From Saprospiraceae bacterium (GTDB lineage: Bacteria; Bacteroidota; Bacteroidia; Chitinophagales; Saprospiraceae): a DNA stretch of 56,350 nucleotides. Location: the NCBI GenBank assembly GCA_025056735.1, contig JANWVR010000106.1:1-56350 (forward strand), in the 5' to 3' direction. This document shows, one piece after another, positions 1,518 to 55,254 of this stretch (positions within the stretch are counted from its first letter, which is position 1; each line of letters starts with the position of its first letter). A program made the translations under genes and the position numbers. The notes below the pieces were generated by a model. That model was given only the letters and a program-made list of their open reading frames with translations, did not search any database and was not told the origin of the DNA.

Positions 1518-3149
1518 ATGTCTGACGCTATTTTTTCCCTTCCTCATCCTATCAACGAGCCGGTGTTGACCTATGCGCCGGGTACTCCGGAGAGAGCCGA
1601 ATTGAAAAAAGCCCTTGCTGATCTGAAATCGGTCGAGCGCGATATTCCCATGTACATCGGCGGCCAGCACGTTTACACCAACGAGCAGCGCCGCATTTGC
1701 CCGCCGCACGAGATCAAGCACACGCTGGGTTACCATTCGGTAGGCACAGCCGAGCACGTACAGGTGGCTATCGAGGCGGCGCTCAAAGCCAGACCTGCCT
1801 GGGAAGCCATGCCCTGGCAGGAACGCGCCGCTATTTTCTTGAAGGCAGCCGACCTGCTGACCGGCCCCTATCGCGCACGCATGAACGCTGCCACCATGCT
1901 CTGCCAGAGTAAGAACGCATTCCAGGCCGAAATTGACGCCGTATGCGAATTGGCGGACTTCTGGCGCTTCAACGCCTGGTTTATGCAGGAAATCTACCAG
2001 CAGCAGCCTATCAGCTCGCGCAACACCTGGAATCGGATGGATTGGCGACCGTTGGAGGGCTTCGTGTTTGCTCTTACGCCGTTCAACTTCACCTCCATCG
2101 CTGGAAATCTACCTACCGCTCCTGCTATTCTGGGAAATGTAGCCGTCTGGAAGCCCGCCGAGTCGCAGATTTACTCTGCCGCCGTCATTATGGAGGTGCT
2201 TGAGGCCGCCGGACTGCCCCCCGGCGTGGTCAATCTCGTTTACGTGAGTGGCCCAACGGCTGGTGAAGTGATCTTTAAGCATCCGCAATTTGCAGGCCTG
2301 CACTTCACGGGTAGCACGGGCGTCTTCCAGCGGCTCTGGAAAACCATCGGCGAAAACATTGCCACCTATCGCTCTTACCCGCGCATCGTGGGTGAAACCG
2401 GGGGCAAAGACTTTGTCGTGGCCCATCACTCTGCCGATCCTAAGGCCTTAGCTGTGGCCCTCACGCGCGGGGCCTTCGAGTATCAGGGCCAAAAATGCTC
2501 TGCCGCCTCGCGCGCCTATATCCCTCAATCGCTGTGGCCAAAAGTGGAAGAATATCTCTTAGATGACCTGCAAAGCATCAAAATGGGCAATCCAGAAGAC
2601 TTTACCAACTTCTTCAATGCCGTCATTGACGAAAAGGCTTTTGATAAGATTACCAGTTACATTGCCGAGGCTAAAAAGTCCGACAAAGTGCGCGTGCTTT
2701 TTGGTGGCAACTACGATAAATCAGAAGGTTATTTCATCGAACCCACTGTGCTGCTCACCTCCGACCCGCACTACGTTACCATGTGCGAAGAAATCTTCGG
2801 GCCGGTGCTAACGCTCTACATCTACGACGATAATCAGTATGCCGAGACGCTCGACTTGGTAAACAATACCTCGCCCTATGCGCTTACGGGTGCTGTTTTT
2901 GCGCGTGATCGGGCAGCCTTGGCGCTGGCAGATGAAAAACTGCGGCACGCGGCGGGCAACTACTACATCAACGACAAACCCACTGGGGCTGTCGTAGGGC
3001 AGCAGCCCTTTGGCGGTGGGCGCGCTTCGGGCACCAACGACAAGGCCGGTTCTGTGCTCAACCTTTACCGATGGCTTTCACCGCGCTCCATCAAGGAAAA
3101 CTTCGTGCCGCCCACCGATTACCGCTATCCGTTCATGCTCGAACCGTAA
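1518..3149 (+). CDS. pruA: L-glutamate gamma-semialdehyde dehydrogenase (P5C dehydrogenase)
   Basis: This NAD-dependent aldehyde dehydrogenase oxidises glutamate semialdehyde, the hydrolysis product of pyrroline-5-carboxylate, to glutamate in proline catabolism. The 543-aa protein has the single-domain architecture and length of the eukaryote-like ALDH4 group rather than the bifunctional PutA form. Visible motifs are LTPFNFTSIAGNLP and VWKPAES (cofactor binding), FTGSTGVF, GETGGKDF (general-base Glu), GQKCSAASR with catalytic C327, and EEIFGPVL. A longer in-frame start at 1458 would overlap coaD. ATG 1518, 4 bp after the coaD stop, gives the family-typical N-terminus and was chosen. No putA-type proline dehydrogenase is in the window. 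Confidence 0.96.
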   Translation: MSDAIFSLPHPINEPVLTYAPGTPERAELKKALADLKSVERDIPMYIGGQHVYTNEQRRICPPHEIKHTLGYHSVGTAEHVQVAIEAALKARPAWEAMPWQERAAIFLKAADLLTGPYRARMNAATMLCQSKNAFQAEIDAVCELADFWRFNAWFMQEIYQQQPISSRNTWNRMDWRPLEGFVFALTPFNFTSIAGNLPTAPAILGNVAVWKPAESQIYSAAVIMEVLEAAGLPPGVVNLVYVSGPTAGEVIFKHPQFAGLHFTGSTGVFQRLWKTIGENIATYRSYPRIVGETGGKDFVVAHHSADPKALAVALTRGAFEYQGQKCSAASRAYIPQSLWPKVEEYLLDDLQSIKMGNPEDFTNFFNAVIDEKAFDKITSYIAEAKKSDKVRVLFGGNYDKSEGYFIEPTVLLTSDPHYVTMCEEIFGPVLTLYIYDDNQYAETLDLVNNTSPYALTGAVFARDRAALALADEKLRHAAGNYYINDKPTGAVVGQQPFGGGRASGTNDKAGSVLNLYRWLSPRSIKENFVPPTDYRYPFMLEP

Positions 3150-3794: not shown

Positions 3795-6212
3795 TCAGGA
3801 GCGCAGTTGCACACGCAGCAGTTGTGCCAATTGTTCGAAGGCTGTTTTCCATTCCTCGTTAATGAATTCCCATTCGCCTTTTCGATAGCCTTTGGTTACC
3901 AAATAAAACAGGTTTTGGCTGCGCCAGATGTCGGGCTGGAGGTTCATGTCTTGCAAGGCCTTTAGCGTTTCAATGAGCCAGAGCACGCGCCCGATGGGTG
4001 GGTGTTCGCGGTGGAGGCGGCGAATCTCGCGGTGGATGCGTTGGCTGGCGGCGTGTAAAACAGCCTCTTCATCGGCCAGTTTGATACTCCAATTGCGCAG
4101 GTCTTGCGCGACGCGCTGGAGGGTTTGAATGGAAGAGGTATGGTTATTGGCAAAGAAGCGCAGTAGCTCGTTGTTTAATACATAGGCAGCAATGCTTTTC
4201 CAGGTGTCGGGAACAGGCAAGCCAGCGTCTTGCAGGCCGACAATGACCTGATAGTTATCGTTGAAAACGTTACGCAAATTGACCTCGGCCAATTGGAGGC
4301 TTTGGGCGGTAATGGCGCGCATAATGCGAATTTTTTCATCGGCGAAGAGGGTAGTGATCGAAAACCGCTGGGCGCCGATGAACTCTTGCTGCAATTGAAT
4401 GACTGTGCCTAAGTCAGCTTTACGGAAGGCCTCGACGATTTGCTGGCGAATGCTCTCGAACTGAGAACGCGGAATGGCATCGCTGATATGACCGAGAACG
4501 TGCTGCTGCCCCAGATAGAGCGCAGAGAAGGCATATGCCAATTCGGCCTGTGTGAGCAGTGAGCGTATGCGCAAGCGCCCGATGGCTAAGCGCGGCGTAC
4601 CTGCTTCGATGCGCTCGAAGGTCTCTACGTAGGCCGAGTAGTTGTGCAGATTCATTTGCTCGGGCGCTTCTTCAAACAGTGAAGCCACGGCGAAGTGGGC
4701 TGCCACGCGTTCCAGAGTGATACGGTTAGGCACAACGTTTTGCTGGTAGCTGGCCGCGCCGTCGGCATAGCGATTGCTGGGCGCCCGATGCAGGCGTCGC
4801 TCGAATTCTTCATGCAGGTTAAGCCCTGTGGTCTCCTGGGCGTAGTCCATGGCACGCAGCGCATACTGGAGAATCTGGTGTGTCTCTATGCCCGATATTT
4901 CATCAAAAAACCAGCCGCAGCTGGTGTACATAAGCATCGCGAAGCGCTGCATTTCGAGCAATCGCAAGGCGGTTATCTGCTCCAGCTCGCTTAGGCCGCG
5001 CCGCGCATGCTTTTGGAAAAAGGCGCTGCGTGTTTTATCGGTGCGACTCAGTACGACTTCGATATAGTCGTTTCGGGCTTTCCAGGGGTCTTTGAAGAAG
5101 CGTCCGGCCTCGCGTTCGTAGGCCGGCGCAAGCTGGTCGCGCACGTAGTCAAGCGCCTCGCGCAGCGGCCTTCGCCATCGTTGATGCCATTCGGGGTGTG
5201 CGCCGGTGTTGCAACCGCAGTCGCTTCGCCAGCGCTCTACGCCATGCGCACAACTCCAGGAGGTGTTTTCCTGGATTTGCACCTCCCACTCTGGGGGAAA
5301 CATTTCCAAGTATTGGCCGTAATTGGTCAGCGCGGCCTTTCCACTGGCCTCGATGTCGTTTAGAGCAGCGGCTAAGGCCATTTCGCCGAAGCGGTGATGG
5401 TGGCCATAAGTCTCCCCGTCGGTGGCAATGTGGGCCAATTGAGGCCTATCGGAGTTGTCTAAAAGCCCGAGCAAGCGCCCGGCAAATGCCTGGCCGTTGT
5501 TGAGCAAGTGCTCGAAGGCTACGGCCTGCGACACCGGTCCATGGTAGAAAAACAAAGCGATGCGTCGCCCGCTGGGCAGCGGACACCAATAGGGCTGGCT
5601 GGTGTCTAAGGTGCTGGCATTCACGGGCTGCCAGGCGTCTTCGCCGATGCGTCGCACTGCCGCCGCCTGGTGGGGCGCCAAAAGCGTGAACTGGATGCCA
5701 TGGGCCGCCAATACCTCCAGCGTTTCTACATCCACGGCCGTCTCCGGCAGCCACATACCCTCTGGATGCCGCCCAAAGCGATGCTCAAAGTCGCGCACGC
5801 CCCAGTACACCTGGGTTACTTTGTCGCGATAATTGGCCAACGGCATAATCAAGTGGTTATATGCCTGCGCCAACGCATTGCCGTGCCCGCCATGACGCTG
5901 CTGGCTGACCCGGTCGGCTTGCAAAATGAGTGAATACGTTTCCGGGTCGTTGACTTCTAACCAGGTGAGCAGCGTAGGGCCGAAGTTAAAGGAAATGCGG
6001 TTGTAGTTATTTCGAATTTTAATAATCCATCCGTTCGCATTTAGTATGCGCGCTGCTGCATTAGGCGCATAGCACTCAAAGTTAATGCGCTCGTTCCAGT
6101 CGTGGTAGGGGCGGGCGCTTTCTTGCTGCTCTACCACTTCCAACCAGGCATTCTCTCGCGGAGGCTGATAAAAATGTCCGTGCACGCACACGTATTTCTT
6201 TCGCTTGCTCAT
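3795..6212 (-). CDS. Glycoside hydrolase family 57 protein with DUF3536 domain
   Basis: The 805-aa protein begins with a GH57 catalytic domain: HGHFYQPPREN (residues 11-21) is the family's first motif, WLPETAVDVETL contains E157, and ATDGETYGHHHRFGEM contains D265, the expected acid/base Asp. After about residue 330 the protein continues into the long alpha-helical region found in the DUF3536 subfamily. GH57 enzymes act on alpha-1,4-glucans (amylase, 4-alpha-glucanotransferase, branching activity), but the substrate of the DUF3536 branch is not established, so I assign only the family. There is no signal peptide, so the protein is cytosolic. ATG 6212 (MSKRKKYVCVHGHF) fits the family start better than 6275. 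bshC lies 82 bp upstream in the same direction and may share the transcript. Confidence 0.88.
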   Translation of the reverse strand: MSKRKKYVCVHGHFYQPPRENAWLEVVEQQESARPYHDWNERINFECYAPNAAARILNANGWIIKIRNNYNRISFNFGPTLLTWLEVNDPETYSLILQADRVSQQRHGGHGNALAQAYNHLIMPLANYRDKVTQVYWGVRDFEHRFGRHPEGMWLPETAVDVETLEVLAAHGIQFTLLAPHQAAAVRRIGEDAWQPVNASTLDTSQPYWCPLPSGRRIALFFYHGPVSQAVAFEHLLNNGQAFAGRLLGLLDNSDRPQLAHIATDGETYGHHHRFGEMALAAALNDIEASGKAALTNYGQYLEMFPPEWEVQIQENTSWSCAHGVERWRSDCGCNTGAHPEWHQRWRRPLREALDYVRDQLAPAYEREAGRFFKDPWKARNDYIEVVLSRTDKTRSAFFQKHARRGLSELEQITALRLLEMQRFAMLMYTSCGWFFDEISGIETHQILQYALRAMDYAQETTGLNLHEEFERRLHRAPSNRYADGAASYQQNVVPNRITLERVAAHFAVASLFEEAPEQMNLHNYSAYVETFERIEAGTPRLAIGRLRIRSLLTQAELAYAFSALYLGQQHVLGHISDAIPRSQFESIRQQIVEAFRKADLGTVIQLQQEFIGAQRFSITTLFADEKIRIMRAITAQSLQLAEVNLRNVFNDNYQVIVGLQDAGLPVPDTWKSIAAYVLNNELLRFFANNHTSSIQTLQRVAQDLRNWSIKLADEEAVLHAASQRIHREIRRLHREHPPIGRVLWLIETLKALQDMNLQPDIWRSQNLFYLVTKGYRKGEWEFINEEWKTAFEQLAQLLRVQLRS

Positions 6213-7884: not shown

Positions 7885-8153
7885 ATGCGAAGGAAAAGGG
7901 CTCCAGGTTAGAAAAATGACTCACAGGCAGGCAAAACAACCACCTGTAGGGTTTGTTCTACAAAAAAATTAAGGCTCGACAGACGCGCAACGGCAGCAGT
8001 GCAAAACATCCAGCGCCTGCAAACCGCAAAAGCGCGGCCTTCGGCCCTGCCAAAACATGCAAGAGAGGATGTATCCAGCCCGCTCTCAGCCATTCCTCCA
8101 ATCTTGCGAAAACGTTGTGCAGGCAAAATTCCGATTAATTGAAGCAACTCCGA

Positions 8154-8232
8154 TTTTTCATTTTCCACCTTCCATTTTCCATTTTTCCCTCTCCATTTTT
8201 CATTTTTCACTTTCCACTTTTCACTTTTCATT
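8154..8232. repeat. Degenerate ~10-bp tandem repeat (CCATTTTTC/CACTTTTC type)
   Basis: About eight imperfect units of the form (T)CCA(T/C)TTTTC run head to tail. The minus strand reads as GAAAAATGG/GAAAAGTGG units, which translate to K/E/W/N-rich frames. The array ends about 20 bp before the -7 box of the downstream gene and so overlaps its -33 region. Unit number is likely to vary between strains. Confidence 0.75.
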
Positions 8233-18841: not shown

Positions 18842-21800
18842 TTACCGCACGATTGTTACATCTCCCATGCGAAGTACGCGGCGCACCCGACCGCAATAAT
18901 TTACATCGGCTGATACGTGCCATACAAACACTGCTGGCTGCATGGGGGTGCTTCGGAACGGCCCGCGCCAACCTTCCTGCGGGTCTTGCGTGCGGAACAT
19001 CAAATTGCCCCAGCGATCATAAATCTCAAACCGATAGTTACTCAGGCTTAAATTCGGTGCGAAATACGGCCGGAACTGGCTGTTGTCGGCATCGCCAGAC
19101 TCAGGTGCAAATACGTTGGGCATGTAAAAGAACTCGACGTCAGGCCGCTCCCTGTCCCAGCGTACGCGCACCTCACGTCGTACGCGCTCGCAAATGTTGC
19201 TGATTTCAACAGTGTAAATACCGGGTTCAAACACCTCAATCTGTGGCGTTTGCGCTCCCGTACTCCACTGGTAAGCTAAACCCGTCAGGGTGCCGCTCAC
19301 TGCTGGCGCTAACACTACCCCCTCAGCACTGCAGGGCAGAAGCGCTCCGTTCCCCAGCGCAACCGACAGCGGCGCTAGCGCCGGCACTTCAGCAGGCTGC
19401 TCAAACACGCAGCCATTGGCATCTCTGAGTCGAAGCACATAAGGGCCGGGAGGCAAGTTGAGGAAGCGCAAATCGCTCTGGAACGTCTTGCCATCTAGCG
19501 AATACTGGTACGGCGGAAGACCACCCGAGGGCTGGCTGACAGTCAGCCCGCCGGTGCTGCTGTTAGCGCAGGAAGCCTGTGCTTGCACGGCGAAGGTAGC
19601 TGAAGGATAGGCCAACACCTGCACTACAACGATGGAGTCGCAGCCCGCCGAATTGATAAAAGCAAACCTGCGCGTCTCTCCCGCGCGCACGGCTGTGCTA
19701 TTGAAGGAAAACACTTCGTCAGGACATACGCGCACTCGAAGCGTATCTACCGAGGTCGGCAGTGCGCTCACCACGACCGTTACCACCGAGTCGCAACCCT
19801 GGCTGCTAGTCAGCACAAAGTCCCGCACCGCACCAATGGGCAGCGCTACGCCCTGATAAACAAAGGATTGACCCGGACAGGCGCCCGCGCGCAGCGTGCT
19901 GCTCGCAGCCGGAATAGCCGCCACGTTTACCGTCAGCACAGAGTCGCAACCGGCGGCGTTTTGCAAAGTAAAGGTTTGGCTACTGCCTGCTGGGATGAGC
20001 GTTCCGTTGTAGTTGTACGATTTTCCGGCGCAGGCGCTGACGTTGAGCGTGCCCGCAGTGGCCGGCAGGGCCGCCACGTTCACCGTCAGCACGGAGTCGC
20101 AACCGGCGGCGTTTTGCAAAGTAAAGGTTTGGCTACTGCCTGCTGGGATGAGCGTTCCGTTGTAGTCGTACGACTTTCCGGCACAGGCGCTGACGTTGAG
20201 CGTGCCTAAAGTGGCGGGCAGGGCCGCCACGTTCACCGTTAGGACGGAGTCGCAACCGGCGGCGTTTTGCAGGGTAAAGGTTCGGCTGCTGCCTGCCGGA
20301 ATGAGCGTTCCGTTGTAGTCGTACGACCTTCCGGCGCAGGCGCTGACGTTGAGCGTGCCCGAAGTGGCCGGGATTTCGGAGACGGTAACGGTAACTAAGG
20401 AGTCGCAACCGTCGGCAGTGACGTAGGCGAAAGTATGGCTCCCCCCCGCTGGAATGGGTGTTCCATTAAAAAGCAAGGTCTCCCCCGTGCAGGCGCTCAA
20501 TTGAATGCCGGTAGTATAGGCGCCGACGCACGTTTGCCGGAGGAGCAAGGCGACCTGGGTGGCGGCGTCGCACCCGACTAAATTCGCGCTGGCCTGGCCG
20601 ATGACGACCTTCCAGCCGGGCGGCAGGGCGCTGGTGTCAATGGCCGCCGTGTAGCCGCCGGCAGGCACGTTGGCAAAGGCAAAAGCGCCGTTGGCGCCCG
20701 AAAGGCCAGACCCTACCGCTGTGCCGCCTTGCCACAGACGCACCAGCACGCCGCTGACGAGCGTATCGCCTGCATCCACGATGCCGTTGCCGTTCACATC
20801 GGCCCACACCCGGCCTAGCACGGCGCCAAAGCCGTTGTACAGGTTGAGCGTCAACGGCCTGCTGCGGTTGGTGCAGCCAAAGATATCGGTCAGCACGGCG
20901 TGATACGTGCCGCTTTGCGTCGGCACAAGGTTGGGCGATGTGGCGCCCGGTAGGGGATTCCCATTCAAAAACCACTGCCAGGCCGTAATGCCGGGGATGT
21001 TCGGAGCGCAGAGCGTATCAGGGCGGCAGCGCGTGTGGCAGCCCGCTGGAACAGCCGATACCTGCGGACCGGGTAAGATGACCACCGGATTGCTGCGCGC
21101 TTCGCAGCCAAACTCGTTGATGACGCGCAGGAAGTAGCGCCCGGGCTGAGTTGTCGTCAGCGGCACGCCCTTGTGGCCTGTGTTCCATACAAATTGCCAG
21201 TTGCCCGGGTTGGGGCCGTTGTACGTGAGCGTGTTCGTCGTTCCAGCACAGGGCGGCGAGGCTAAATTACCGATAGAAAAGCCTGACGGCACGGGGTTTA
21301 CATTTACCACAAACGGCGGCGACACGCTGGTGCAGCCCGTCGTCAGGTCGGTTACCGTCACGGTGTACAGGTGCACGCCAACGGGCAGCCGGTTGTTGCG
21401 TTGCTCGGAAAACTCGATGCGCGTGCCCGTAACGCCCGTGGACCACGTGAATGTGAGATTGCCCTGGCCCTGAGCGATGAGGTACACATCGTCGCCAGCG
21501 CAGACGCTGTGCGAGGGGTAGGCCAGCCCAATGGTTTGGCCCAACTCGTTGATTATAGCCGCTTTAATGAGCGCGTCTGGCCCGGGCACGAAACGCACGG
21601 GCACGGGCGGCGGCGCGTAGGTACAGCCGTTGGCGTCGGTAAGCGTAACGCGGTAAACGCCCTCTTGCGTTACGACCAGCGTGTTGGCCTGGCTGCTGTC
21701 GCTCCACAGGTAGGCGACGCCGCCAGCAGGAGCCGTCAGCGTCAGCGTTCCACCTTCGCACAGGGGGGCGGGATTGGCGGGCGCGATGTTTCCGCTGTGC

Positions 21801-24800
21801 GTGTTGGCTACGACGTTTACGACACTGGTCTTCGTTGCCGTGCAGCCAAAATTGTCGGTGGCTATTGCTGTAACTGTGTAAGCGCCCGGCGAGAAGCGGT
21901 GGTAAGCCGGCGAGCCGGTGGCTGTATTCAGTGCGCCCGAAGCCGGGTCGCCGAAGTCCCAGGTCAGGTTTTCGCCGTTGCCCTCGAACAGCAGGGCATT
22001 GTCAGCGCATCCGCTGTTGGGCGTGCTGACCAAGGGCTGAGCGGGCTGGCGCACCTCTATATTTCGCGAAGCAGTCGCTGTGCAACCGCTGTTGGCCGTA
22101 ATGGTCAATTTTACTGCATAGGCGCCGCCGTTGGCAAAAACGTGGCTAGGTTCGCGCAGGTTGGAAGTATTGTTCGCTCCGGAGCCTGGGTCGCCAAAAT
22201 TCCAGCTCCAGGCCGTGATGCCGCTGGAAGGCAAATAGCTGCTTTCTTCTTTAAATAAAACCGACGCGCCAGCGCAGGCCGCTGGGGCGGAAAAACGCGC
22301 TACGGCTTCTACAGCAAAGGGCTCGTACAGAAAACAAACCTGGCCGGTGCTGATGGTGCGGGCAATCAAAAGCGCATTCTGGAAACCTACTTCCGGAAAT
22401 ACGCGATGCACTACGTCGCCCGAGTCAGCGGCAAAGATGCCTTTGCCCCACTGGAAAAAGCGCCATTGCGCCGAGCCGGGCAGGTAGTCTGGCCCTATGG
22501 CGCGGAAGCCCACGGAGTCGCAGCGCCCGGTAGGTAGGATTTGAATGGCCACCTGACCAGGCGTGCAGGGCGGCGCACTGCCGGGTATGGGCGCTCCCCC
22601 GCCGCCACCACCGCAGTCCTGGACAATGGCGAGCGGGCCGGCAGTGGCCGAACAGCCTGCCGCATTCGTTACCCGCACAGTGTACTGGCCGAATTGGTTA
22701 GTGGTAAAAGTTGGCGAATTGCCGCCCACGGTCGCGCCATTGCGGAACCATTCGTAAGTCAGGCCGCCGCCAGAATGGACTACCGCTTGCAAGGTTACAT
22801 TTTGCGGCGCGCAAAAAGCCGTAGGGTCGTTGGTCGAGAGCGTAACGTAGGGCGTCTCGCGCTGCGCAATGCTAAAGGAAGCCTTTATCGGACATCCATC
22901 GGCATCGTAGGCTTCTACGGTGTAATGTCCTGGTCCCAAGCGCGCTGTATCGGCGGTACTGAGCATCTGTTGATTGGCGTTGCGCCACTGGTAGTTGCTG
23001 TAGGTTTGCGCTGTGCGCACCACAGCGGTTTCGCCGGCGCATAGCGCTGTGGGGTGCTGCACTGTCGCGGGCGATGGCGGCGATACGGTTACCGAAAAGG
23101 CCGCCGTTTGGCTGCAGGCCGAGGCTCGAAGGGCGTGAATGCCCCCGCGAGGCCAGTACACGGTTACGCGATTTGTACCCTGTCCGGCAGTAATGACGCC
23201 CGCGTCGGCAGGCTGTACGCTCCACTGGATATTGAGGCCCGAAAGGCCCGGCAATTCATATTGAGCGGTTTCGCCCACGCACAACGTGTCGGGGCCGGAG
23301 AGCGTGGCGCCGCTGAGCGCCTGAACGTTTAGCGTGGCCGAGGCCGAAAGGCAGCCCAGTCCATCGTTGGAAAGTGTCTGGGCTGAAAGTTGGTACGGGC
23401 CATTGGGCTGCCAGGTAATGTTGATGGGGTTGCCCAAGAGCGTTTGGGGCGCACCCGGGCCGTTTTGCACCGTCCAGCGCACGGTAGCGCCGGCGGGTAC
23501 GCCCTCGGCGGCGTACGTTAGCGTTTGTCCCGGGCAGATGACCGCCGGCCCGCGGATACCTGTTGGCACGGCAGGCGGGGTCGGCACGCGCACGCCCCAC
23601 TCGCGCGCGTCGGTGCACGTTTGGGCGGGATTGGCTGGCACAGCGCGCATGCGGTAATAGCCCGCGCCCGCATTCAGCGGGGCCAGCACCGATGCCGATG
23701 GGCCGGGCGATGTCCACACCGGAGAACCGTTGGGGCCAAGGAGCGTCCAGTGGCTCGACAGGTTCTGATTATTGACCGTCAGGCGCGACAGAAAGCTGCC
23801 GGATGTACCAGCGCACACTTCTACCGGCCCATTGAGGAAAAAGGGAGATAGGATGCGCACTTCAATGGTATCCTGCCCGCCGCACTCTAAGTAACAGTTG
23901 TCGTAACGCACCGACAGGCGATGCACGGCGTTGGGATTAGCCGAACCGCCCCACCGCACCACAATGCGCGACGTGCCTTGGCCTTCCATAATCGTTCCAC
24001 CGCTGGAGAGCGTCCACACAAAGCCTGTGCCGCCGTAAGCCTCGATGCTATACGCCTCCTCGGCGTTGGGGCACACGCGCTCGCGGCCCTGGATTTGGGC
24101 GTTGTCGTCTATGATGGGAATGCGCACTAAGGTAGGGAACGGACAGGCCGCTCCGGCACACGCCTGTGGCGATAGCCAGATGGCGCCCACCGGGCCAGTG
24201 TTCCATCGAATAGCGATACTATCGGCTCCGGGTACGCCGCCGCCCAGCACCGAGCCATTCGGGCTGATGCTCCACTGAATGCCCGAGCAATTGGCTGCCG
24301 CGCGATACGTGGCCGTCGTCCCGGCGCACAGGTCGCCCACGCAGTCAAGCGTCGGGGACTCTGCATCAAGCACCTCGACCACCGCCTCCGTCGTATCGGT
24401 GCACAGGCAGCCAGTAGTAGCTATTAAGCGGACGGTATAGACGCCTGGTTTTGTAAAGGTGTGTTGCGCATTGACCGTTCGGCTGACCAACAGGTCATCG
24501 CTGAAAAACCACTCGTAGCGGTCGGCATTCTGGCTGCGGTTGTCGAACCACACCGTCTGGCCTTTGCAAATGCGCACCGTATCGCTGCCCGCAGCCGGTG
24601 GCGGGCTGACATCAAAGGCAGCGCGTGGCTCTTCCACAATGGTTACGCACAGCCCCGCCTCCCCTACACAAGGCGGCTGGCTATTGGAGAAGACCACTGC
24701 CGAAACATAGCCGGCGCCGGAAGCGCCCCAGTGCACCGTAACAGCCGTGCGGTGCGGCTGGTGAATGCGAAAGCTGTCGGCTCCAATGACCGACCAGGTG

Positions 24801-25303
24801 ATGTTAGGTGGGCTACCTATGAGAGGGGGTTTTTCGATGGAATACGTAACTGTGCTTTTAGGGCAAACGCGGTCGCACACTTTGGCATCCACAGCGTCAA
24901 CGCTATCGGGCGATGCGCACAGTGAGATGTTCGAGGATACTAGCTTCACTTCCGTGAACGGTAAAACGCGCACCTCGATGGTACTCGTCCCTAAAAGGCT
25001 GCCGTTGAGCGATACAATGCTGACAAAAACTTTATAAATGCCGGACTGATAAAAGCAAAATGTCGGCGTACTGTCGTTGCTGACGGCTATCGTCGCACCG
25101 TTGGCACTTGCCTGTATCCACTGATAGCCACCGACAACGATGCTCGAGCCACCGGGCGCGGTAACTACTACCCGGTATTTATAGCACCCGGGACACACGG
25201 TTGTCGGCCCTGAAATGGAAACAGCAGTATTTTGAGCTGGCAGGCCACTATAGAAAACAAAAGAGGCGACAAGGGCGGGTATGAGTCGGTTAAAAGGCAA
25301 CAT
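18842..25303 (-). CDS. Giant PKD-repeat surface protein with gliding-type (CHU_C) C-terminus
   Basis: The 2153-aa exported protein has a signal peptide (LPFNRLIPALVASFVFYSGL, cleavage near LPAQ). It is built from many Ig/PKD-like modules; two clear PKD repeats read WSWNFGDPGSGANNTS and LTWDFGDPASGALN, with HVF/HRF..GAY motifs. Around residues 1490-1575 lies an SdrD B-like module (GRVWADVNGNGIVDAGD). Residues 1598-1903 are six 51-aa repeats. The C-terminus (about 2065-2153: FYMPNVFAPE, YRFEIYDRWGNLMFRT, GWRGPF) is the CHU_C / T9SS type-B sorting domain seen in gliding-associated proteins. It is probably displayed on or released from the cell surface; an adhesin role is inference. ATG 25303 starts exactly at the signal peptide. 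Confidence 0.93.
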   Translation of the reverse strand: MLPFNRLIPALVASFVFYSGLPAQNTAVSISGPTTVCPGCYKYRVVVTAPGGSSIVVGGYQWIQASANGATIAVSNDSTPTFCFYQSGIYKVFVSIVSLNGSLLGTSTIEVRVLPFTEVKLVSSNISLCASPDSVDAVDAKVCDRVCPKSTVTYSIEKPPLIGSPPNITWSVIGADSFRIHQPHRTAVTVHWGASGAGYVSAVVFSNSQPPCVGEAGLCVTIVEEPRAAFDVSPPPAAGSDTVRICKGQTVWFDNRSQNADRYEWFFSDDLLVSRTVNAQHTFTKPGVYTVRLIATTGCLCTDTTEAVVEVLDAESPTLDCVGDLCAGTTATYRAAANCSGIQWSISPNGSVLGGGVPGADSIAIRWNTGPVGAIWLSPQACAGAACPFPTLVRIPIIDDNAQIQGRERVCPNAEEAYSIEAYGGTGFVWTLSSGGTIMEGQGTSRIVVRWGGSANPNAVHRLSVRYDNCYLECGGQDTIEVRILSPFFLNGPVEVCAGTSGSFLSRLTVNNQNLSSHWTLLGPNGSPVWTSPGPSASVLAPLNAGAGYYRMRAVPANPAQTCTDAREWGVRVPTPPAVPTGIRGPAVICPGQTLTYAAEGVPAGATVRWTVQNGPGAPQTLLGNPINITWQPNGPYQLSAQTLSNDGLGCLSASATLNVQALSGATLSGPDTLCVGETAQYELPGLSGLNIQWSVQPADAGVITAGQGTNRVTVYWPRGGIHALRASACSQTAAFSVTVSPPSPATVQHPTALCAGETAVVRTAQTYSNYQWRNANQQMLSTADTARLGPGHYTVEAYDADGCPIKASFSIAQRETPYVTLSTNDPTAFCAPQNVTLQAVVHSGGGLTYEWFRNGATVGGNSPTFTTNQFGQYTVRVTNAAGCSATAGPLAIVQDCGGGGGGAPIPGSAPPCTPGQVAIQILPTGRCDSVGFRAIGPDYLPGSAQWRFFQWGKGIFAADSGDVVHRVFPEVGFQNALLIARTISTGQVCFLYEPFAVEAVARFSAPAACAGASVLFKEESSYLPSSGITAWSWNFGDPGSGANNTSNLREPSHVFANGGAYAVKLTITANSGCTATASRNIEVRQPAQPLVSTPNSGCADNALLFEGNGENLTWDFGDPASGALNTATGSPAYHRFSPGAYTVTAIATDNFGCTATKTSVVNVVANTHSGNIAPANPAPLCEGGTLTLTAPAGGVAYLWSDSSQANTLVVTQEGVYRVTLTDANGCTYAPPPVPVRFVPGPDALIKAAIINELGQTIGLAYPSHSVCAGDDVYLIAQGQGNLTFTWSTGVTGTRIEFSEQRNNRLPVGVHLYTVTVTDLTTGCTSVSPPFVVNVNPVPSGFSIGNLASPPCAGTTNTLTYNGPNPGNWQFVWNTGHKGVPLTTTQPGRYFLRVINEFGCEARSNPVVILPGPQVSAVPAGCHTRCRPDTLCAPNIPGITAWQWFLNGNPLPGATSPNLVPTQSGTYHAVLTDIFGCTNRSRPLTLNLYNGFGAVLGRVWADVNGNGIVDAGDTLVSGVLVRLWQGGTAVGSGLSGANGAFAFANVPAGGYTAAIDTSALPPGWKVVIGQASANLVGCDAATQVALLLRQTCVGAYTTGIQLSACTGETLLFNGTPIPAGGSHTFAYVTADGCDSLVTVTVSEIPATSGTLNVSACAGRSYDYNGTLIPAGSSRTFTLQNAAGCDSVLTVNVAALPATLGTLNVSACAGKSYDYNGTLIPAGSSQTFTLQNAAGCDSVLTVNVAALPATAGTLNVSACAGKSYNYNGTLIPAGSSQTFTLQNAAGCDSVLTVNVAAIPAASSTLRAGACPGQSFVYQGVALPIGAVRDFVLTSSQGCDSVVTVVVSALPTSVDTLRVRVCPDEVFSFNSTAVRAGETRRFAFINSAGCDSIVVVQVLAYPSATFAVQAQASCANSSTGGLTVSQPSGGLPPYQYSLDGKTFQSDLRFLNLPPGPYVLRLRDANGCVFEQPAEVPALAPLSVALGNGALLPCSAEGVVLAPAVSGTLTGLAYQWSTGAQTPQIEVFEPGIYTVEISNICERVRREVRVRWDRERPDVEFFYMPNVFAPESGDADNSQFRPYFAPNLSLSNYRFEIYDRWGNLMFRTQDPQEGWRGPFRSTPMQPAVFVWHVSADVNYCGRVRRVLRMGDVTIVR
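19595..20512 (-). repeat. Six tandem 153-bp (51-aa) repeats inside the giant gene
   Basis: Consensus features are TLNVSACAGKSYDYNGTLIP, then an AGSSQTFTL segment, NAAGCDSVLTVNV and a Pro-rich linker. Units 2-4 are almost identical at DNA level (153-bp period, for example the CCACGTT landmarks at 19921, 20074 and 20227). Units 1, 5 and 6 are diverged. Each unit keeps two cysteines (SAC and GCDS), suggesting one disulfide per repeat. Confidence 0.92.
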
Positions 25304-39695: not shown

Positions 39696-41156
39696 ATGCA
39701 AAAGAAACTACTTTCCTTCCTCGCCCTGTGCGTGCTTGTAGCATCGCTGCTTGACGCGCAAAAGATGGTTTCTGCCCAGTTTTTAGGCAGCCGCACGCGC
39801 GCGCAAATTGCTGCGCAGTTCAACAACCCGTTGGTGCAATACGATGCTCGCTTCTATCGGGTGATTTACACTACTAAAAATACGGCTGGTCAGCCCGATA
39901 CAGTATCCGGGCTTATCGTTGTTCCGCAAGACCCTGCCCGCATCTTTCCGCGATTGGTATATCAACACGGTACCTCCTCAACTCGCACTGACGTACCGTC
40001 ATTTAATGTGATGACAGGCGGTGAAGGTGCCATCGGCCTGCTTTTTGCCGGCATGGGCTTCCTGACTTTTATGCCCGACTATTTGGGCCTGGGGGTTGCC
40101 AAGGGCTTCCATCCTTATGTACATGCTGCTTCCGAGTCCTGGGTAGCGGCAGACATGTTGCGCACCCTGCCCGATTTTATGGCCTACTATGGCCCTGGGC
40201 TGCATGTGAACGACCAGCTGTTTGTAACTGGTTACTCACAGGGCGGCCATGCCTCGATGGCCTTTCAGCGCGACGTGGAAGGGCCCTGGAAGAATGAGTT
40301 CAAGATGACAGCGGCCAGCCATATGTCTGGCCCGTACAGCATTGGCGAAGTTATGCGCAATCTCGTTCTGTCAGACGATATCTATTTCTATCCGGCCTAC
40401 ATTCCGCATACGTTAATCTCGTATCAAAATGTCTATGGAAATCTCTTCAATTTTGTGCATGAGGTGTTTCGAGAGCCGTATGCAACGGTCATCAGTCAGC
40501 ACTATAGCGGCAGCATGAACCTGATTGCACTAAATATCCAACTCGTTAACCTCCTGACGCAGAACGAGGGCGCTTGCCGACCTGTGCGCATGCTGCAACC
40601 TTCTTTAGTGCAGGAAGTAAAAGCCGATGACGGGCATCCGATTAATGTTGCCCTGCGCGACAACAACGTATATCGCTGGGCGCCTCAGGTGCCCACACGG
40701 ATTTTCTACTGCATGGCTGACGACCAGGTGCCGTTCCGAAACAGTATTGTTGCTCGCGACACCATGCTGGCTCGGGGGGCTCTTAACCTGCAAGTCACAG
40801 ACGTCAACTCAAACGCTGACCACGGGGCATGCTTCTCACCGGCACTTCTTAATACGATCCTCTTCTTTCTGGCCTACCGGGATGTGGGTTATGTGAGTAG
40901 CGCCGATGAGCCCCACGCCATTGCACCGCTCCAACTGCAGCCCAACCCGACTAACGGTGCTGTCTGGCTGATGGATTTGCCCGGCGAAGGGCAGGTGCAA
41001 GTCTTCGATGTAAGTGGACGCCTACGCCTGGATATTACCGGGATTGCCGAGCACAACTACCGGCTCGATCTCTCGACATTGGAAAACGGCCTGTACCTCG
41101 TCCGCTTCGTAGCCGGCGGCCAGCTCTGGCAGAGTAGGGTAGTGGTGCAGCGTTAG
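39696..41156 (+). CDS. Secreted lipase/esterase with T9SS sorting domain
   Basis: The 486-aa protein has a signal peptide (LLSFLALCVLVASLLDAQ) and a large alpha/beta-hydrolase domain. Features include LVYQHGTSSTRTDVPSF, FLTFMPDYLGLGVAKG, the nucleophile elbow GYSQGGHAS with S181, FYCMADDQVPFRNS (acid) and DHGACFSPAL (His). The last ~75 residues (LQLQPNPTNGAVWLMDLPGE, VQVFDVSGRLRLDI, LENGLYLVRFVAGG) are a classic type-A C-terminal sorting domain. The enzyme is therefore exported through the Sec and type IX systems to the surface or medium, where it would hydrolyse lipid or ester substrates. It has its own strong promoter. Confidence 0.92.
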   Translation: MQKKLLSFLALCVLVASLLDAQKMVSAQFLGSRTRAQIAAQFNNPLVQYDARFYRVIYTTKNTAGQPDTVSGLIVVPQDPARIFPRLVYQHGTSSTRTDVPSFNVMTGGEGAIGLLFAGMGFLTFMPDYLGLGVAKGFHPYVHAASESWVAADMLRTLPDFMAYYGPGLHVNDQLFVTGYSQGGHASMAFQRDVEGPWKNEFKMTAASHMSGPYSIGEVMRNLVLSDDIYFYPAYIPHTLISYQNVYGNLFNFVHEVFREPYATVISQHYSGSMNLIALNIQLVNLLTQNEGACRPVRMLQPSLVQEVKADDGHPINVALRDNNVYRWAPQVPTRIFYCMADDQVPFRNSIVARDTMLARGALNLQVTDVNSNADHGACFSPALLNTILFFLAYRDVGYVSSADEPHAIAPLQLQPNPTNGAVWLMDLPGEGQVQVFDVSGRLRLDITGIAEHNYRLDLSTLENGLYLVRFVAGGQLWQSRVVVQR

Positions 41157-41188
41157 AGGCTCTCACAATACAAAGCCCGCCTTCGAAG

Positions 41189-41725
41189 TTATTTCAACTC
41201 CATCACTTCCACGCCCAGTAGCCCGCACCGCACGGGCAATAATACGGTATCGCCGGGTTGGGTGATGGGAAAGTAAGGCTGGCTCTTGTACTGGAACTGG
41301 CGCAGGTGTTCGCCGTCTTTAACTATGAGGCGATAACCAGTAACCTCAATAGGCTGGTAACGCAGCCAGCCGTAGGCAGAGGCTACATAAGGCGCTTCAG
41401 CCACAAACTTGAACGGGCGATGCTCCACTGAGCCGCCAGCGCGGTTGAGCCGGCTGGCAAACAGCGGCATGAATAGCGGGATGAAGAAAACAATAAGCAA
41501 CACCTCGGGTAGATGATTAGCCCAGGGCGTCAGACGTTTACGCAGGAAGTACAGCAGGGCGCCAGCCAAAAGGAGTCCGAAAAGAAAGGCGCCCAGTACC
41601 AAACGACTGGCCTGCAGTGTATTGGTAAATACTGGATACTCGCGCGTGTACAGCCAGATCAGGCCAAACAGTACGATCACCGCAGCCATCGCTACCAAAC
41701 GTTCGCGCCAGGAGAGATCATCCAT
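41189..41725 (-). CDS. Membrane protein of unknown function
   Basis: The 178-aa protein has three membrane segments near the N-terminus (LVAMAAVIVLFGLIWLY, LVLGAFLFGLLLAGALLYFL, LPEVLLIVFFIPLFMPLF). About 75 soluble residues then contain FKFVAEAPYVASAYGWLRYQ and PYFPITQPGDTVLLPVRCG. I do not recognise the family. ATG 41725 was chosen: the longer in-frame start at 41773 would translate part of the repeat array. The array ends only 10 bp upstream of this start codon. The atp operon terminator lies further upstream, so the gene needs its own promoter, which must lie within or beyond the array. Confidence 0.7.
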   Translation of the reverse strand: MDDLSWRERLVAMAAVIVLFGLIWLYTREYPVFTNTLQASRLVLGAFLFGLLLAGALLYFLRKRLTPWANHLPEVLLIVFFIPLFMPLFASRLNRAGGSVEHRPFKFVAEAPYVASAYGWLRYQPIEVTGYRLIVKDGEHLRQFQYKSQPYFPITQPGDTVLLPVRCGLLGVEVMELK

Positions 41726-41735
41726 AGTACCCGTA

Positions 41736-41935
41736 AAGTAACCGCCAAACTTGTTTGGCCCAGTAACCGCCAAACTTGTTTGGCCAAGTAATCACCAAAC
41801 TTGTTTGGCCAAGTAACCGCTAAACTTGTTTGGCCCAGTAACCGCCAAACTTGTTTGGCCAAGTAACCGCCAAACTTGTTTGGCCAAGTAATCACCAAAC
41901 TTGTTTGGCCAAGTAACCGCCAAACTTGTTTGGCC
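41736..41935. repeat. Array of eight 25-bp direct repeats, each with a palindrome
   Basis: Eight back-to-back units begin at 41736, 41761, 41786, 41811, 41836, 41861, 41886 and 41911. Each reads (A/C)AGTAA(C/T)C(G/A)C(C/T)AAACTTGTTTGGCC. The core CCAAACTTGTTTGG is a perfect palindrome apart from its central TT; variation is confined to the 9-10 bp between palindromes and one C-to-T change in unit 4. The array ends 10 bp before the start codon of the membrane gene. A related pair lies before recQ (53289-53331). Confidence 0.95.
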
Positions 41936-41999
41936 CCAAAAATAAAGCCCCTCACGCACAGAAATACCGCAAAGTCAAAAGAAACATGCGCCGGCCATG

Positions 42000-42035
42000 A
42001 AAAAAAGCCCTGTTGCGAGTATACTGCAACAGGGC
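42000..42035 (-). terminator. Rho-independent terminator of the atp operon
   Basis: On the minus strand a perfect 10-bp stem, GCCCTGTTGC with GCAACAGGGC (42026-42035 with 42007-42016) and a 9-nt loop, is followed by seven Ts (complement of 42000-42006). It lies 38 bp past the atpG stop. Confidence 0.92.
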
Positions 42036-42073
42036 CGGGGGGGGAGGTATTCGATCGTTGGTTTGTTTTCTCA

Positions 42074-42967
42074 TTAGGTGCCTTCCAGTGCTGCTGCACC
42101 GCCGACGATTTCGGTCAGTTCGGTTGTGATGGCTTCCTGGCGCGCCTTGTTGTAGCTGATACGTAGTTCTTTAAGCAGTTCCTCAGCGTTGTCAGTGGCC
42201 TTGTCCATGGCAGTCATGCGAGCGCCGTGTTCGCTGGCGTGTGTGTCGAGCATGGTTTTGTGGAACTGCAGCTGCAAGATGCTGGGTACCAGCGTCTCCA
42301 GCAGTTGTTGTTTGTCTGGTTCAAAGATGTAGTCGGCGCGTTTTTTAGTGCCTTCGGCAGGAGTCATCTTCGGTACTGGGAGCCATTGTTCTACCATTGG
42401 GTATTGCGTGGCGGCATTTTTGAAATGTCCGTAGACGATATCAATGGCGTCGTATTGCCCTGCTAAGAACGCATCCATGAGCGTACGCGCTAAAGCGCTG
42501 GTATTTTCGTAAGTCAGGTGATTGAAGAGGTCTATGTGGTCGGTGTTGAAGTTTATGTCGCGATAGCGGCGACGGAAGAAGTCGTAGCCTTTTTTACCAA
42601 CAAACAACATCGTTAACCGACCGGCTTGGCGCTGTTCGGCGTACTTGGCCTGAATGTGCGCAGCAGCCTCTTTGTTGATGTTTGAATTAAAGGCGCCGCA
42701 TAGCCCTCGGTTCGATGTAACGACGACCACCAGCACGTTCTTCACGTCGCGTTGGGTGCCAAAGGCCGTTGTCGCATCGCCATCTAAGTTGGACAGGATG
42801 TTGGATAGCATGCGGTTGAGGCGATTGGCATAGGGGCGCATCTGCACGATAGCCGACTGCGCTTTACGCAGCTTGGCTGCCGAGACCATCTTCATGGCCT
42901 TGGTAATCTGCTGCGTAGAAATGATAGACTTAATGCGCTCGCGAACTTCTTTGAGTCCTCTTGCCAT
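42074..42967 (-). CDS. atpG: F0F1 ATP synthase subunit gamma
   Basis: The gamma subunit is the central rotor shaft linking F0 rotation to catalysis in F1. The 297-aa protein starts with GLKEVRERIKSIISTQQITK, then AMKMVSAAKLRKAQSAIVQM, the conserved N-terminal helix. It contains VVVTSNRGLCGAFNSNINK and ends with ASEHGARMTAMDKATDNAEE, then ITTELTEIVGGAAAL, the C-terminal helix. It is the last gene of the atpBEFHAG unit, 67 bp after atpA, and is followed by a strong terminator. atpD and atpC do not follow, as is usual in Bacteroidota, where they lie elsewhere. Confidence 0.97.
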   Translation of the reverse strand: MARGLKEVRERIKSIISTQQITKAMKMVSAAKLRKAQSAIVQMRPYANRLNRMLSNILSNLDGDATTAFGTQRDVKNVLVVVVTSNRGLCGAFNSNINKEAAAHIQAKYAEQRQAGRLTMLFVGKKGYDFFRRRYRDINFNTDHIDLFNHLTYENTSALARTLMDAFLAGQYDAIDIVYGHFKNAATQYPMVEQWLPVPKMTPAEGTKKRADYIFEPDKQQLLETLVPSILQLQFHKTMLDTHASEHGARMTAMDKATDNAEELLKELRISYNKARQEAITTELTEIVGGAAALEGT

Positions 42968-53241: not shown

Positions 53242-53272
53242 CCCTCGCTGCCGTCGCGGCGAGGGTTTTTTT
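53242..53272 (+). terminator. Rho-independent terminator of cspA
   Basis: CCCTCGC (53242-53248) pairs with GCGAGGG (53259-53265), followed by seven Ts and a further T-rich stretch. Confidence 0.92.
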
Positions 53273-53288
53273 ATTTTTGCCCTGTACC

Positions 53289-53331
53289 GGCCAAACTTGT
53301 TTGGCCAAAATATCACCCAAACTCGTTTGGG
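53289..53331. repeat. Palindrome pair upstream of recQ, related to the 41.7-kb array
   Basis: GGCCAAACTTGTTTGGCC (53289-53306) and CCCAAACTCGTTTGGG (53316-53331) are two palindromes 26 bp apart, centre to centre. The first and its spacer (AAAATATCA) correspond closely to a unit of the 25-bp array. The second ends 15 bp before the recQ start codon. Confidence 0.9.
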
Positions 53332-53346
53332 CACTTCCTGAGAGTT

Positions 53347-55254
53347 ATGGCCACCCCACTTTCCATCCTGCAGCAATACTGGAAGTACCCGGCTTTCCGC
53401 CCCCTCCAGGAGGACATCATTCAGTCCGTCTTGAGTGGCTGTGATACGCTGGCTTTGCTACCCACGGGCGGCGGCAAATCCATTTGCTATCAAGTGCCGG
53501 CGCTTTGCCGCGAGGGGGTGTGCATTGTGGTTTCTCCGCTCATAGCCCTGATGAAAGACCAGGTCTTTCAGCTGAAAAAGCGCGGCATCCCGGCGGCGGC
53601 CATATACTCTGGGATGAGTGCGCGGGAAATCGATATAACATTTGAAAACGCCTGCCACGACGCCTACAAGTTGCTGTATCTCAGCCCAGAGCGCTTGCAG
53701 ACCGACATGGCGATGGCGCGCATTGCACGTATGAATGTCAATCTGCTGGCGGTAGATGAGGCGCATTGCGTTAGCCAGTGGGGCTATGACTTTCGACCGC
53801 CGTATTTGCAGATTGCTGAATTCCGCCAACACATTCTGCCTCAGACGCCGCTGTTGGCCCTGACGGCTACAGCCACGCCCGAAGTAGTGCGCGATATTCA
53901 GGATAAGTTGGGCTTCCGCTCGGGTAGCCGCGTATTTCAACAGAGTTTTGAGCGCAAAAACCTCTCTTATTCCGTCCTCTACGAGGCGCGTAAGCTCGAT
54001 AAATTGCTGAGTATCCTGAAGAGCGTTTCAGGCAGTGGGCTGATTTACGTGCGCAGCCGTAAGGAGACCAAAGAGATTGCTTTATTGCTTCAGCGCGAGG
54101 GCATTAGCGCGGATTTTTACCATGCCGGATTGGGCCTGGAAGAGCGCAATCAGAAGCAAGAGTCCTGGCTTCAGGGCCGCACGCGCATCATGGCCTGCAC
54201 CAATGCTTTTGGTATGGGCATTGATAAGCCTGACGTCCGTTTGGTGGTGCATTTGGCGCCGCCGGATAGCCTGGAAGCCTATTTCCAGGAGGCAGGGCGT
54301 GCCGGTCGGGATGGGCTGAAGTCCTATGCTGTGCTGCTCTACACGCCTTCGGATGCGGATAGCCTTCGCCGTCATCTTAAGCAGGCACATCCCGGTATCG
54401 AAGAAGTGCGGCGGGTTTATCAGGCGCTGGGCAGCTATTCCCAAATAGCAATCGGAGCGGGCAGAGGAGAGTCGTTTCCCTTTGACCTTCAGCATTTTTG
54501 TGTAACGTATCGCTTTGAGCAGCCAGCTGCCTACGCTGCGCTCCGAACCTTAGAGCATGAGGGCTGGATAGCGCTCTCGGATGCCACTGGTGCCCTTCCG
54601 CGGGTGCGCATTGAGGCCAATCGCGAAGCGCTGTACGACTACCAGCTGCGGCAGCCGCTGGCAGACAAGGTCATACAGGCGCTTTTGCGCCTCTATCCCG
54701 GCATTCAGCGCGAGTACATGGAGGTGAGCCTGCCCACGTTGGCGCGCTACGCCAAAACAGAGGTTCCTGCGCTGGAGCAAGTCTTGCTGGCGGCTCGTCA
54801 GGCCAGTATTTTGGATTATCAACCGGCCTCGGCCCAGCCCACGATGACTTTCCTGCAAGAGCGCGTACCGCCCGAAAACCTGGCGCTTGATGCAAAGCGC
54901 CTGCAATTCCTACGCGAACGCGCTGAGCAGCGCATCGAGGCTGTTATCCGGTACGCTGAGACGCGCCACTGCCGGAGTCGCCAGCTGCTGGCCTATCTGG
55001 GTGAGTTCGGCGCAAAGCCCTGCGGCATTTGCGACATTTGCACCGGCAGGAATACCGCCGAACTCTCTGCCGATGCTTATGAGGTGCTGAAATCGCAAAT
55101 TTTCACCCTTCTTAGGCAACGACAGCAATCTGTGCAGATGCTTCTGAATGCCTTCCCCTCGCGCCAACAGCCGCTCGTCTTGCAGACCCTGGAGCATTTG
55201 CTCGCTGAGGGTATGCTCGCCGAGGCCGAAGACGGCAGCCTCTGTCTTCTTTAA
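53347..55254 (+). CDS. recQ: ATP-dependent DNA helicase RecQ
   Basis: RecQ unwinds DNA 3'-5' in recombination and fork repair. The 635-aa protein has the Walker A motif LALLPTGGGKSICYQVPA (K44), the DEAH box AVDEAHCVSQWGYDFRP (D137), helicase motif VI (FQEAGRAGRDG), the RQC zinc site (C542 in RHCRSRQLLAYLGE plus CGICDIC) and a winged helix at the C-terminus. No HRDC domain follows. ATG 53347 (MATPLSILQQYWKY) was chosen; an in-frame ATG at 53233 would translate the cspA terminator and the palindromes. dapF starts 11 bp downstream, so the two are probably co-transcribed. Confidence 0.96.
   Translation: MATPLSILQQYWKYPAFRPLQEDIIQSVLSGCDTLALLPTGGGKSICYQVPALCREGVCIVVSPLIALMKDQVFQLKKRGIPAAAIYSGMSAREIDITFENACHDAYKLLYLSPERLQTDMAMARIARMNVNLLAVDEAHCVSQWGYDFRPPYLQIAEFRQHILPQTPLLALTATATPEVVRDIQDKLGFRSGSRVFQQSFERKNLSYSVLYEARKLDKLLSILKSVSGSGLIYVRSRKETKEIALLLQREGISADFYHAGLGLEERNQKQESWLQGRTRIMACTNAFGMGIDKPDVRLVVHLAPPDSLEAYFQEAGRAGRDGLKSYAVLLYTPSDADSLRRHLKQAHPGIEEVRRVYQALGSYSQIAIGAGRGESFPFDLQHFCVTYRFEQPAAYAALRTLEHEGWIALSDATGALPRVRIEANREALYDYQLRQPLADKVIQALLRLYPGIQREYMEVSLPTLARYAKTEVPALEQVLLAARQASILDYQPASAQPTMTFLQERVPPENLALDAKRLQFLRERAEQRIEAVIRYAETRHCRSRQLLAYLGEFGAKPCGICDICTGRNTAELSADAYEVLKSQIFTLLRQRQQSVQMLLNAFPSRQQPLVLQTLEHLLAEGMLAEAEDGSLCLL

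Follow-up and report, generated by a model that had tools for sequence, protein, structure and literature searches.

A tandem array of palindromes upstream of a small membrane-protein gene in a Saprospiraceae bacterium is very probably an amplified member of a dispersed REP-type family

Does a palindrome repeated eight times in front of a gene mark a control site of that gene, or does it belong to something that is spread through the chromosome? The question is raised by positions 41736 to 41935 of the 56,350-nucleotide stretch of Saprospiraceae DNA analyzed here (the window), in which eight 25-bp units follow one another head to tail on the plus strand. Direct reading and TRF agreed on a single array (period 25, 8.0 copies, 92% matches, no indels) with units starting at 41736, 41761, 41786, 41811, 41836, 41861, 41886, and 41911, confirming the original prediction of eight gapless units. 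The prediction also recognized correctly that every unit has a palindrome and that unit 4 is altered: the 14-bp core is CCAAACTTGTTTGG in seven of the eight units and CTAAACTTGTTTGG in unit 4. The distance between successive cores is 11 bp, not the 9 to 10 bp first described. Units 3 and 7 have AAGTAATCA in common, and units 2 and 5 have CAGTAACCG in common. A CRISPR array can be rejected, as had been proposed, because the 11-bp spacers are of a few near-identical types rather than unique. The array had been delimited completely, but two further units in the window, at 53284 to 53330, had been overlooked. With up to two mismatches and on both strands, the window has 20 cores, whereas 100 shuffles gave 0.39 on average. 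Two other repeats were seen in the window. Tandem 153-bp repeats at 19917 to 20497 (3.0 copies by TRF plus a weaker extension) lie within a long predicted frame (18842 to 25198) and probably represent repeated protein domains, and an A/T-rich tandem repeat with periods of 7, 14, and 21 lies between two predicted genes at 8153 to 8232.

The array is separated by 10 bp (41726 to 41735), as originally stated, from the start codon (41725 to 41723) of a minus-strand gene (41189 to 41725) for a 178-amino-acid protein that reads as a small membrane protein. The protein had no family match in Pfam or NCBIfam, and its relatives were found in 26 of the 45 genomes searched (its own counted), every one of the same genus. 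Directly upstream of the array in the sense of this gene, direct reading and a motif scan located TATTTTTG (41937 to 41944, minus strand), which we take to be a putative Bacteroidetes-type -7 promoter-like motif. With the motif in this position, the 5' leader of the membrane-protein transcript probably includes the array. The upstream neighbor (42074 to 42967, minus strand, by our gene call) is presumably atpG, the probable ATP synthase gamma subunit gene, judged from sequence features and its place beside other atp-like genes. It is followed by an inverted repeat and T-run (42000 to 42037, minus strand), probably an intrinsic terminator between atpG and the array. A 225-nt stretch that includes the array had a predicted fold of -87.5 kcal/mol, a value without shuffle comparison that reflects mostly pairing between units. 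Rfam returned for positions 40900 to 42300 a single chance-level match, far below its gathering score. The second site (53284 to 53330, plus strand), found by core search and direct reading, has two units, with cores at 53291 to 53304 and 53317 to 53330. It ends 16 bp before the start of a RecQ-type helicase gene (53347 to 55254, plus strand; DEAD, Helicase_C, and RecQ_Zn_bind domains), and TATTTTTG, again taken to be the promoter-like motif, precedes it at 53272 to 53279 on the plus strand.

The core is not confined to these two sites. The genome to which the window belongs (G000; 3.74 Mb) has 192 exact copies of CCAAACTTGTTTGG and none of the reversed control, and the genome of a sister species (G035), an uncultured Saprospiraceae MAG of the same genus, has 91. 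The remaining 35 same-genus genomes have 0 or 1 each, and among 60 genomes (own included) only G000 and G035 have many copies. A looser pattern, CAAACNNGTTTG, gave 224 matches in G000 compared with 5 in the control and 118 in G035 compared with 6, and its counts in other genomes were near or under the control. When a genome collection, from which records very near G000 may be absent, was scanned for core pairs 8 to 14 bp apart, 16 stretches were found, all in one uncultured Saprospiraceae MAG; viral_contigs yielded none. One complete element with a GTAACAG foot was seen in the near relative G002 (L161, 8719 to 8732), between two same-direction genes. Searches of 264 kb from G002 and 120 kb from another near relative, G011, revealed no other abundant palindrome of note. 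The core was not found, in either reading direction, in the open-access literature searched, and, judged by their titles, the papers found on Saprospiraceae and palindromic repeats do not deal with this element.

The statistics below are based on 100 of the 192 exact places in G000 (contigs C2 to C77) and 63 of the 91 in G035. Six of the G000 contigs (L049, L050, L055, L062, L068, and L071) break off within or next to arrays, and in two pairs the contig ends are 100% identical where they overlap. Array lengths at these ends are therefore probably understated, and a few copies are probably counted twice.

Alignment of 125 copies from G000 and 80 from G035 yielded a polar consensus, 5'-GTA(A/G/C)-C-(C/G)-G-CCAAACTTGTTTGG-C. 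The original prediction had described the sequence between palindromes as variable, which does not hold for the GTA foot: it is kept in 95 to 96% of the G000 copies and 90 to 94% of the G035 copies. The fourth base of the foot is A in 61 to 68%, G in 15 to 17%, and C in 14 to 19%. Placed on this consensus, the units of the window array have the foot facing left, toward the membrane-protein gene. The element is thus polar. After units cut short were dropped, one foot was found in 113 of 129 units in G000 and 65 of 82 in G035, no foot in 16 and 15, and both feet in 0 and 2, respectively.

The element, about 22 to 25 bp long, is a palindromic repeat of the 20- to 40-bp, high-copy kind generally known as REP (repetitive extragenic palindrome). 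As a single strand, GCCAAAC-TT-GTTTGGC could form a hairpin, with the 5' GTAR foot two bases off. By sequence the stem has 7 pairs and the loop 2 bases, and folding as single-stranded DNA predicts a six-pair hairpin with a four-base loop (-4.6 to -5.0 kcal/mol). Both arms are changed in 14 of 211 units, compared with 0.65 expected if the arms changed independently. The 11 double changes, counted by locus and position, comprise 9 that restore Watson-Crick pairing, 1 wobble pair, and 1 unpaired case; the 9 are partly dependent because L052 in G000 and L113 in G035 represent one shared, inherited unit. A further 21 changes are one-sided, 7 of them to wobble pairs. Compensatory change thus preserves the pairing, as in other REPs, and supports the view that the palindrome is under constraint, as a hairpin or as symmetric DNA. 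In some loci the repeated unit appears to be larger: at L063 (4813 to 5134) and L072 (3044 to 3230), tandem repeats of 77 bp and about 80 bp take in the element and neighboring DNA, and the repeat at L072 appears to include a gene 3' end. At L106 of G035 (3014 to 3053), a gene apparently reads on into the element in a different frame and terminates there at a TAA created by a core change (CTAAAC).

Comparison of the two species points in the same direction. Among the better-scored genes of the window, G000 and G035 share 89.3% amino-acid identity (11962 residues aligned) and 52.7% identity at 5268 four-fold sites. The foot-side core at 16 shared sites is identical in 211 of 224 bases (94%), a count that includes the two mismatches of L058, where the core is read in opposite senses in the two species. 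Because 14 of the 16 sites came from sister loci chosen for carrying the element, the overall shared fraction cannot be derived from this set, and three G000 clusters without a CCAAAC unit at the orthologous place in G035 (L072a, L066 at tex, and L065) are outside the identity count. Two variant palindromes, CCAAATTTATTTGG at L052/L113 and CCAAATAAATTTGG at L053/L009, are shared by the species at corresponding positions, which argues for constraint rather than homogenization alone. The suggestion that selection acts on the palindrome is therefore borne out both by the compensatory arm changes and by core identity of 94% versus 53% at four-fold sites. Copy number, in contrast, differs. The same membrane-protein gene is preceded in G035 by a single unit, compared with eight in G000; the recQ site has 2 units in G000 and 1 in G035, and other sites have 6 versus 3, 9 versus 2, and 1 versus 2.

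Most copies lie at the edges of genes, with gene boundaries defined by our own codon-score calls. The 36 clusters in G000 (34 once L068 and L071, apparent contig-end duplicates of L055 and L049, are removed; they are counted here unless stated) are located between same-direction genes (16), convergent genes (7), or divergent genes (5), at contig ends (6), or overlapping genes (2). The corresponding numbers for the 47 clusters in G035 are 28, 11, 4, 1, and 3. Thus, 34 of 36 and 44 of 47 clusters are outside predicted genes, as expected of an extragenic repeat, even though 84% of the window is predicted to be coding. The side of the element that bears the foot is the closer one to genes. In G000 the median distances to gene 3' and 5' ends are 11 and 19 bp on the foot side and 79 and 77 bp on the back side; in G035 they are 6.5 and 29.5 bp, and 43 and 103 bp. 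The foot faces a gene 3' end in 21 cases in G000 and 28 in G035, and a 5' end in 18 cases in each genome. The core lies within 20 bp of the start in 10 of the foot-facing 5' ends in G000 and 7 in G035.

At 3' ends the spacing is strikingly regular. The core begins exactly 3 bp past the stop codon in 9 of the 21 foot-facing 3' ends in G000 and 13 of the 28 in G035, which corresponds to 9 of 14 and 13 of 22 when only 3' ends within 30 bp are considered. The foot at these stop codons is GTAA or GTAG in all 9 cases in G000 and in 12 of 13 in G035, the exception being ATAG. Over both genomes, a TAA or TAG stop codon lies inside the foot in 22 of 49 foot-facing 3' ends. The core is within 15 nt of the stop in 12 of 21 cases in G000 and 21 of 28 in G035. 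The original prediction had tied doubt about a regulatory role to two observations, random placement relative to genes and absence in close relatives. The placement is not random, and the absence does apply to 35 of the 36 other same-genus genomes, which have 0 or 1 exact copies.

Three genes with a stop codon in the foot were compared with their counterparts in eight other same-genus genomes, of which 6, 8, and 8 had matches and 6, 8, and 7 had ends that could be read. The product of the M28-peptidase gene (L056) ends in AAGAL in G000, G035, and G002, although only G000 and G035 have the element. The gene at L052 has a matching end without the element in G002 and G011, and the tex gene (L066) is one codon longer in G000. 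For these comparisons with G035, G002, and G011, filled and empty ends terminate the protein at the same residue or one codon off, and in more distant genomes gene ends differ by at most 2 codons. A further gene, at L065, is filled in G000 and has in G035 a bare CAG-TAA end, one codon further on. No clear truncation by the element was seen at the gene ends compared. With filled and empty ends at near-identical places, the element thus sits at stop codons that already existed.

These features resemble those of GTAG-tagged REPs of E. coli, Pseudomonas, and Stenotrophomonas, which are likewise short extragenic hairpins with an unpaired 5' GTA-foot present in more than 100 copies, with stop codons in the foot, complementary changes, and tandem reiteration in clusters. 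Di Nocera 2013 (PMC3733652) places REPs mainly downstream of coding regions, describes many as tandemly reiterated, and reports that their GTAG termini often supply the stop codon of flanking ORFs. Nunvar 2010 (PMC2817692) describes a GT(A/G)G head and palindromes preserved via complementary mutations. REPs no more than 15 nt from a stop codon are reported to lower translation in E. coli (Liang and others 2015, as cited in PMC12306157). The GTAG super-family is, however, recognized by GTAG or GTGG 0 to 2 nt before the stem, and the foot here is mostly GTAA; nor was a transposase gene flanked by the element found. In PMC3733652, GTAG repeats are named for Proteobacteria, Cyanobacteria, Chloroflexi, and PVC, with Bacteroidetes under CGTC repeats. 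The latter are tagged and dispersed palindromes too, described from Bacteroidetes and other groups with no dedicated transposase reported, but the foot here is GTA. Head-to-tail order, as in the array, is also less typical of REPs than the alternating arrangement in BIMEs. Therefore, the family has the general properties of REPs and works like one, but because its foot departs from the strict signature and no flanking gene for a REP-associated tyrosine transposase (RAYT) accompanies it, we file it neither in the GTAG super-family nor as proven RAYT cargo.

RAYT-like transposases are nonetheless present in both carrier genomes, as would be expected of RAYT-mobilized REPs, although the assignment is by similarity and motifs. 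Pfam Y1_Tnp (E of 0.1 or less) had no match in G000, G035, G002, G011, or G061 and matched 37 of 42 same-genus genomes; the impression from this absence that the close clade is RAYT-free was rejected because NCBIfam NF047646 found a RAYT in G000, split by an insertion. Run on six genomes, NF047646 matched G000 and G035 as well as G036 and G018, both of which are without the element, and gave no match in the near relatives G002 and G011, which are all but without it. The scores in the carriers, 58 and 65 bits (E of 7e-16 and 5e-18), are below the curated cut-off of 80. Pfam (E of 0.1 or less) found nothing in the two proteins, and among solved structures E. coli TnpArep (4ER8) comes closest (E of 4e-4). 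By eye, the gene lies between the same neighbors in both genomes. Cores with up to two mismatches were absent from 10 kb around it in G000, and one doubtful match was found in 7 kb in G035; the gene is thus not flanked by the element.

In their NHVH, WQ, and Y motif (YILTNP), the carrier RAYTs resemble TnpAREP subclass 2.4, or RAYT group 4, as set out in PMC6006769, and like group 4 RAYTs with double-foot REPs they have a REP-like double-foot palindrome and short repeats in frame between HUH and Y. The Y motif is one residue off the YIxNNP printed there, and the subclass is assigned by motif only. In both genes (L189, 4680 to 5315; L190, 4390 to 5130), the in-frame palindrome is followed by tandem cccaacgcgccg-like repeats, read as NAPP in the protein and more numerous in G035 than in G000. 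The 18-bp center of this embedded palindrome has one copy in G000 and three in G035, and a search of ten other genomes found none. The palindrome has no sequence relation to the CCAAAC element. Like it, the two G035 elements with both feet are 28 bp long. At the tex stop codon, G000 has CCAAAC units (L066, 3002 to 3191) and G035 has the RAYT-embedded palindrome, GTAA-C-GACGTTGCATGCAACGTC (L173, 3629), whereas neither was found in seven other genomes compared. GTA-foot hairpins with arms of at least 8 were sought in 12 Y1-transposase neighborhoods of other same-genus genomes, with one candidate only.

Could the array instead be a multi-copy operator, as originally proposed, with a dimeric regulator on each palindrome and eight sites controlling the membrane-protein gene? 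In favor of this, the site is symmetric and lies 10 bp from a start codon, a promoter-like motif precedes it, and G035 keeps a unit before the same gene; TAnnTTTG also occurs within 90 bp upstream in 5 of 27 foot-facing 5' sites, compared with 0.67 in shuffles. However, the element is found at least as often at 3' ends as at 5' ends (21 versus 18 in G000, 28 versus 18 in G035) and beside many different genes, and the same gene is preceded by a single unit in G035. A conserved polar foot is superfluous for a dimer operator, paired arm changes are about 20-fold over independence where base readout predicts none, and a 25-bp period does not correspond to an integral number of helical turns. We therefore regard this proposal as very improbable. 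Simple local amplification of neutral sequence by replication slippage, with no family behind it, agrees with the copy number of 8 versus 1 and with the likeness of units 3 and 7 and of units 2 and 5, as multi-unit duplication predicts. It leaves unexplained that 192 copies are dispersed, that the foot coincides with stop codons, and that shared sites are 94% identical, and as a full account, which the dispersed copies contradict, it is barely credible; slippage survives as a mechanism of array growth.

A further possibility is a structural signal that organizes the chromosome, bound by a nucleoid protein or topoisomerase. Gyrase binds E. coli BIMEs. IHF binding of BIMEs is also mentioned in a passage of PMC2817692. 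Many contigs have such sites, which are retained at orthologous positions. In G035, 22 of 31 pairs of clusters adjacent on a contig point the same way (P = 0.011), and in G000, 25 of 36 clusters are oriented against the local GC skew. Neither trend is mirrored in the other genome (6 of 9 pairs in G000, P = 0.23; GC skew in 23 of 46 clusters in G035), and a replication-strand bias, weak and inconsistent between the two genomes, was rejected. Furthermore, a core function is unlikely for an element nearly absent from a relative at 85% amino-acid identity. A chromosome-organizing role is thus very improbable.

We conclude that the array very probably arose when one member of a REP-type family was amplified in tandem. 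RAYT probably spread the family, a link that we infer rather than observe because GTAA is the prevalent foot instead of GTAG and the RAYT gene has no flanking copies of the element. Against it, RAYT and element do not always occur together: 33 of the 37 Y1_Tnp-positive genomes, those in which cores were counted, have 0 or 1 core each, and G002 has one element and no RAYT detected. The RAYT of both carrier genomes would have dispersed single-stranded hairpins that landed at GTA(A/G), a sequence that supplies the stop codon at gene ends, and arrays would have grown afterwards by slippage or unequal recombination. Transcribed copies would form hairpins in mRNA, and those after stop codons might influence how stable the mRNA is or how well the upstream gene is translated. 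The array, as part of the membrane-protein gene's 5' leader, may damp or tune expression of that gene.

In a more specific version of this mechanism, stop codons would be the landing pads: a RAYT resembling group 4 would insert hairpins exactly 3' of GTAA or GTAG, the gene's own stop would serve as the foot, and one transposase would handle two unrelated palindromes. The two different palindromes at the tex stop codon in G000 and G035 support it, and empty ends with an intact GTAA exist for the L056 gene in G002 and the L065 gene in G035. We consider it rather unlikely.

By itself, the array in the window is nothing unusual: it is a REP that has multiplied, probably within a 5' leader, and REPs as such have long been known. 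What looks new is that Saprospiraceae harbor a REP family that is dense and has a GTAA-type foot. Within one clade, two sister species carry it and two near relatives are all but without it, and filled and empty ends at the same stop codons offer a natural test of the sites at which REPs land and of their effect, if any, on C-termini or expression. If stop codons are indeed landing pads, arrays like that in the window would be expression switches that can be tuned via copy number.
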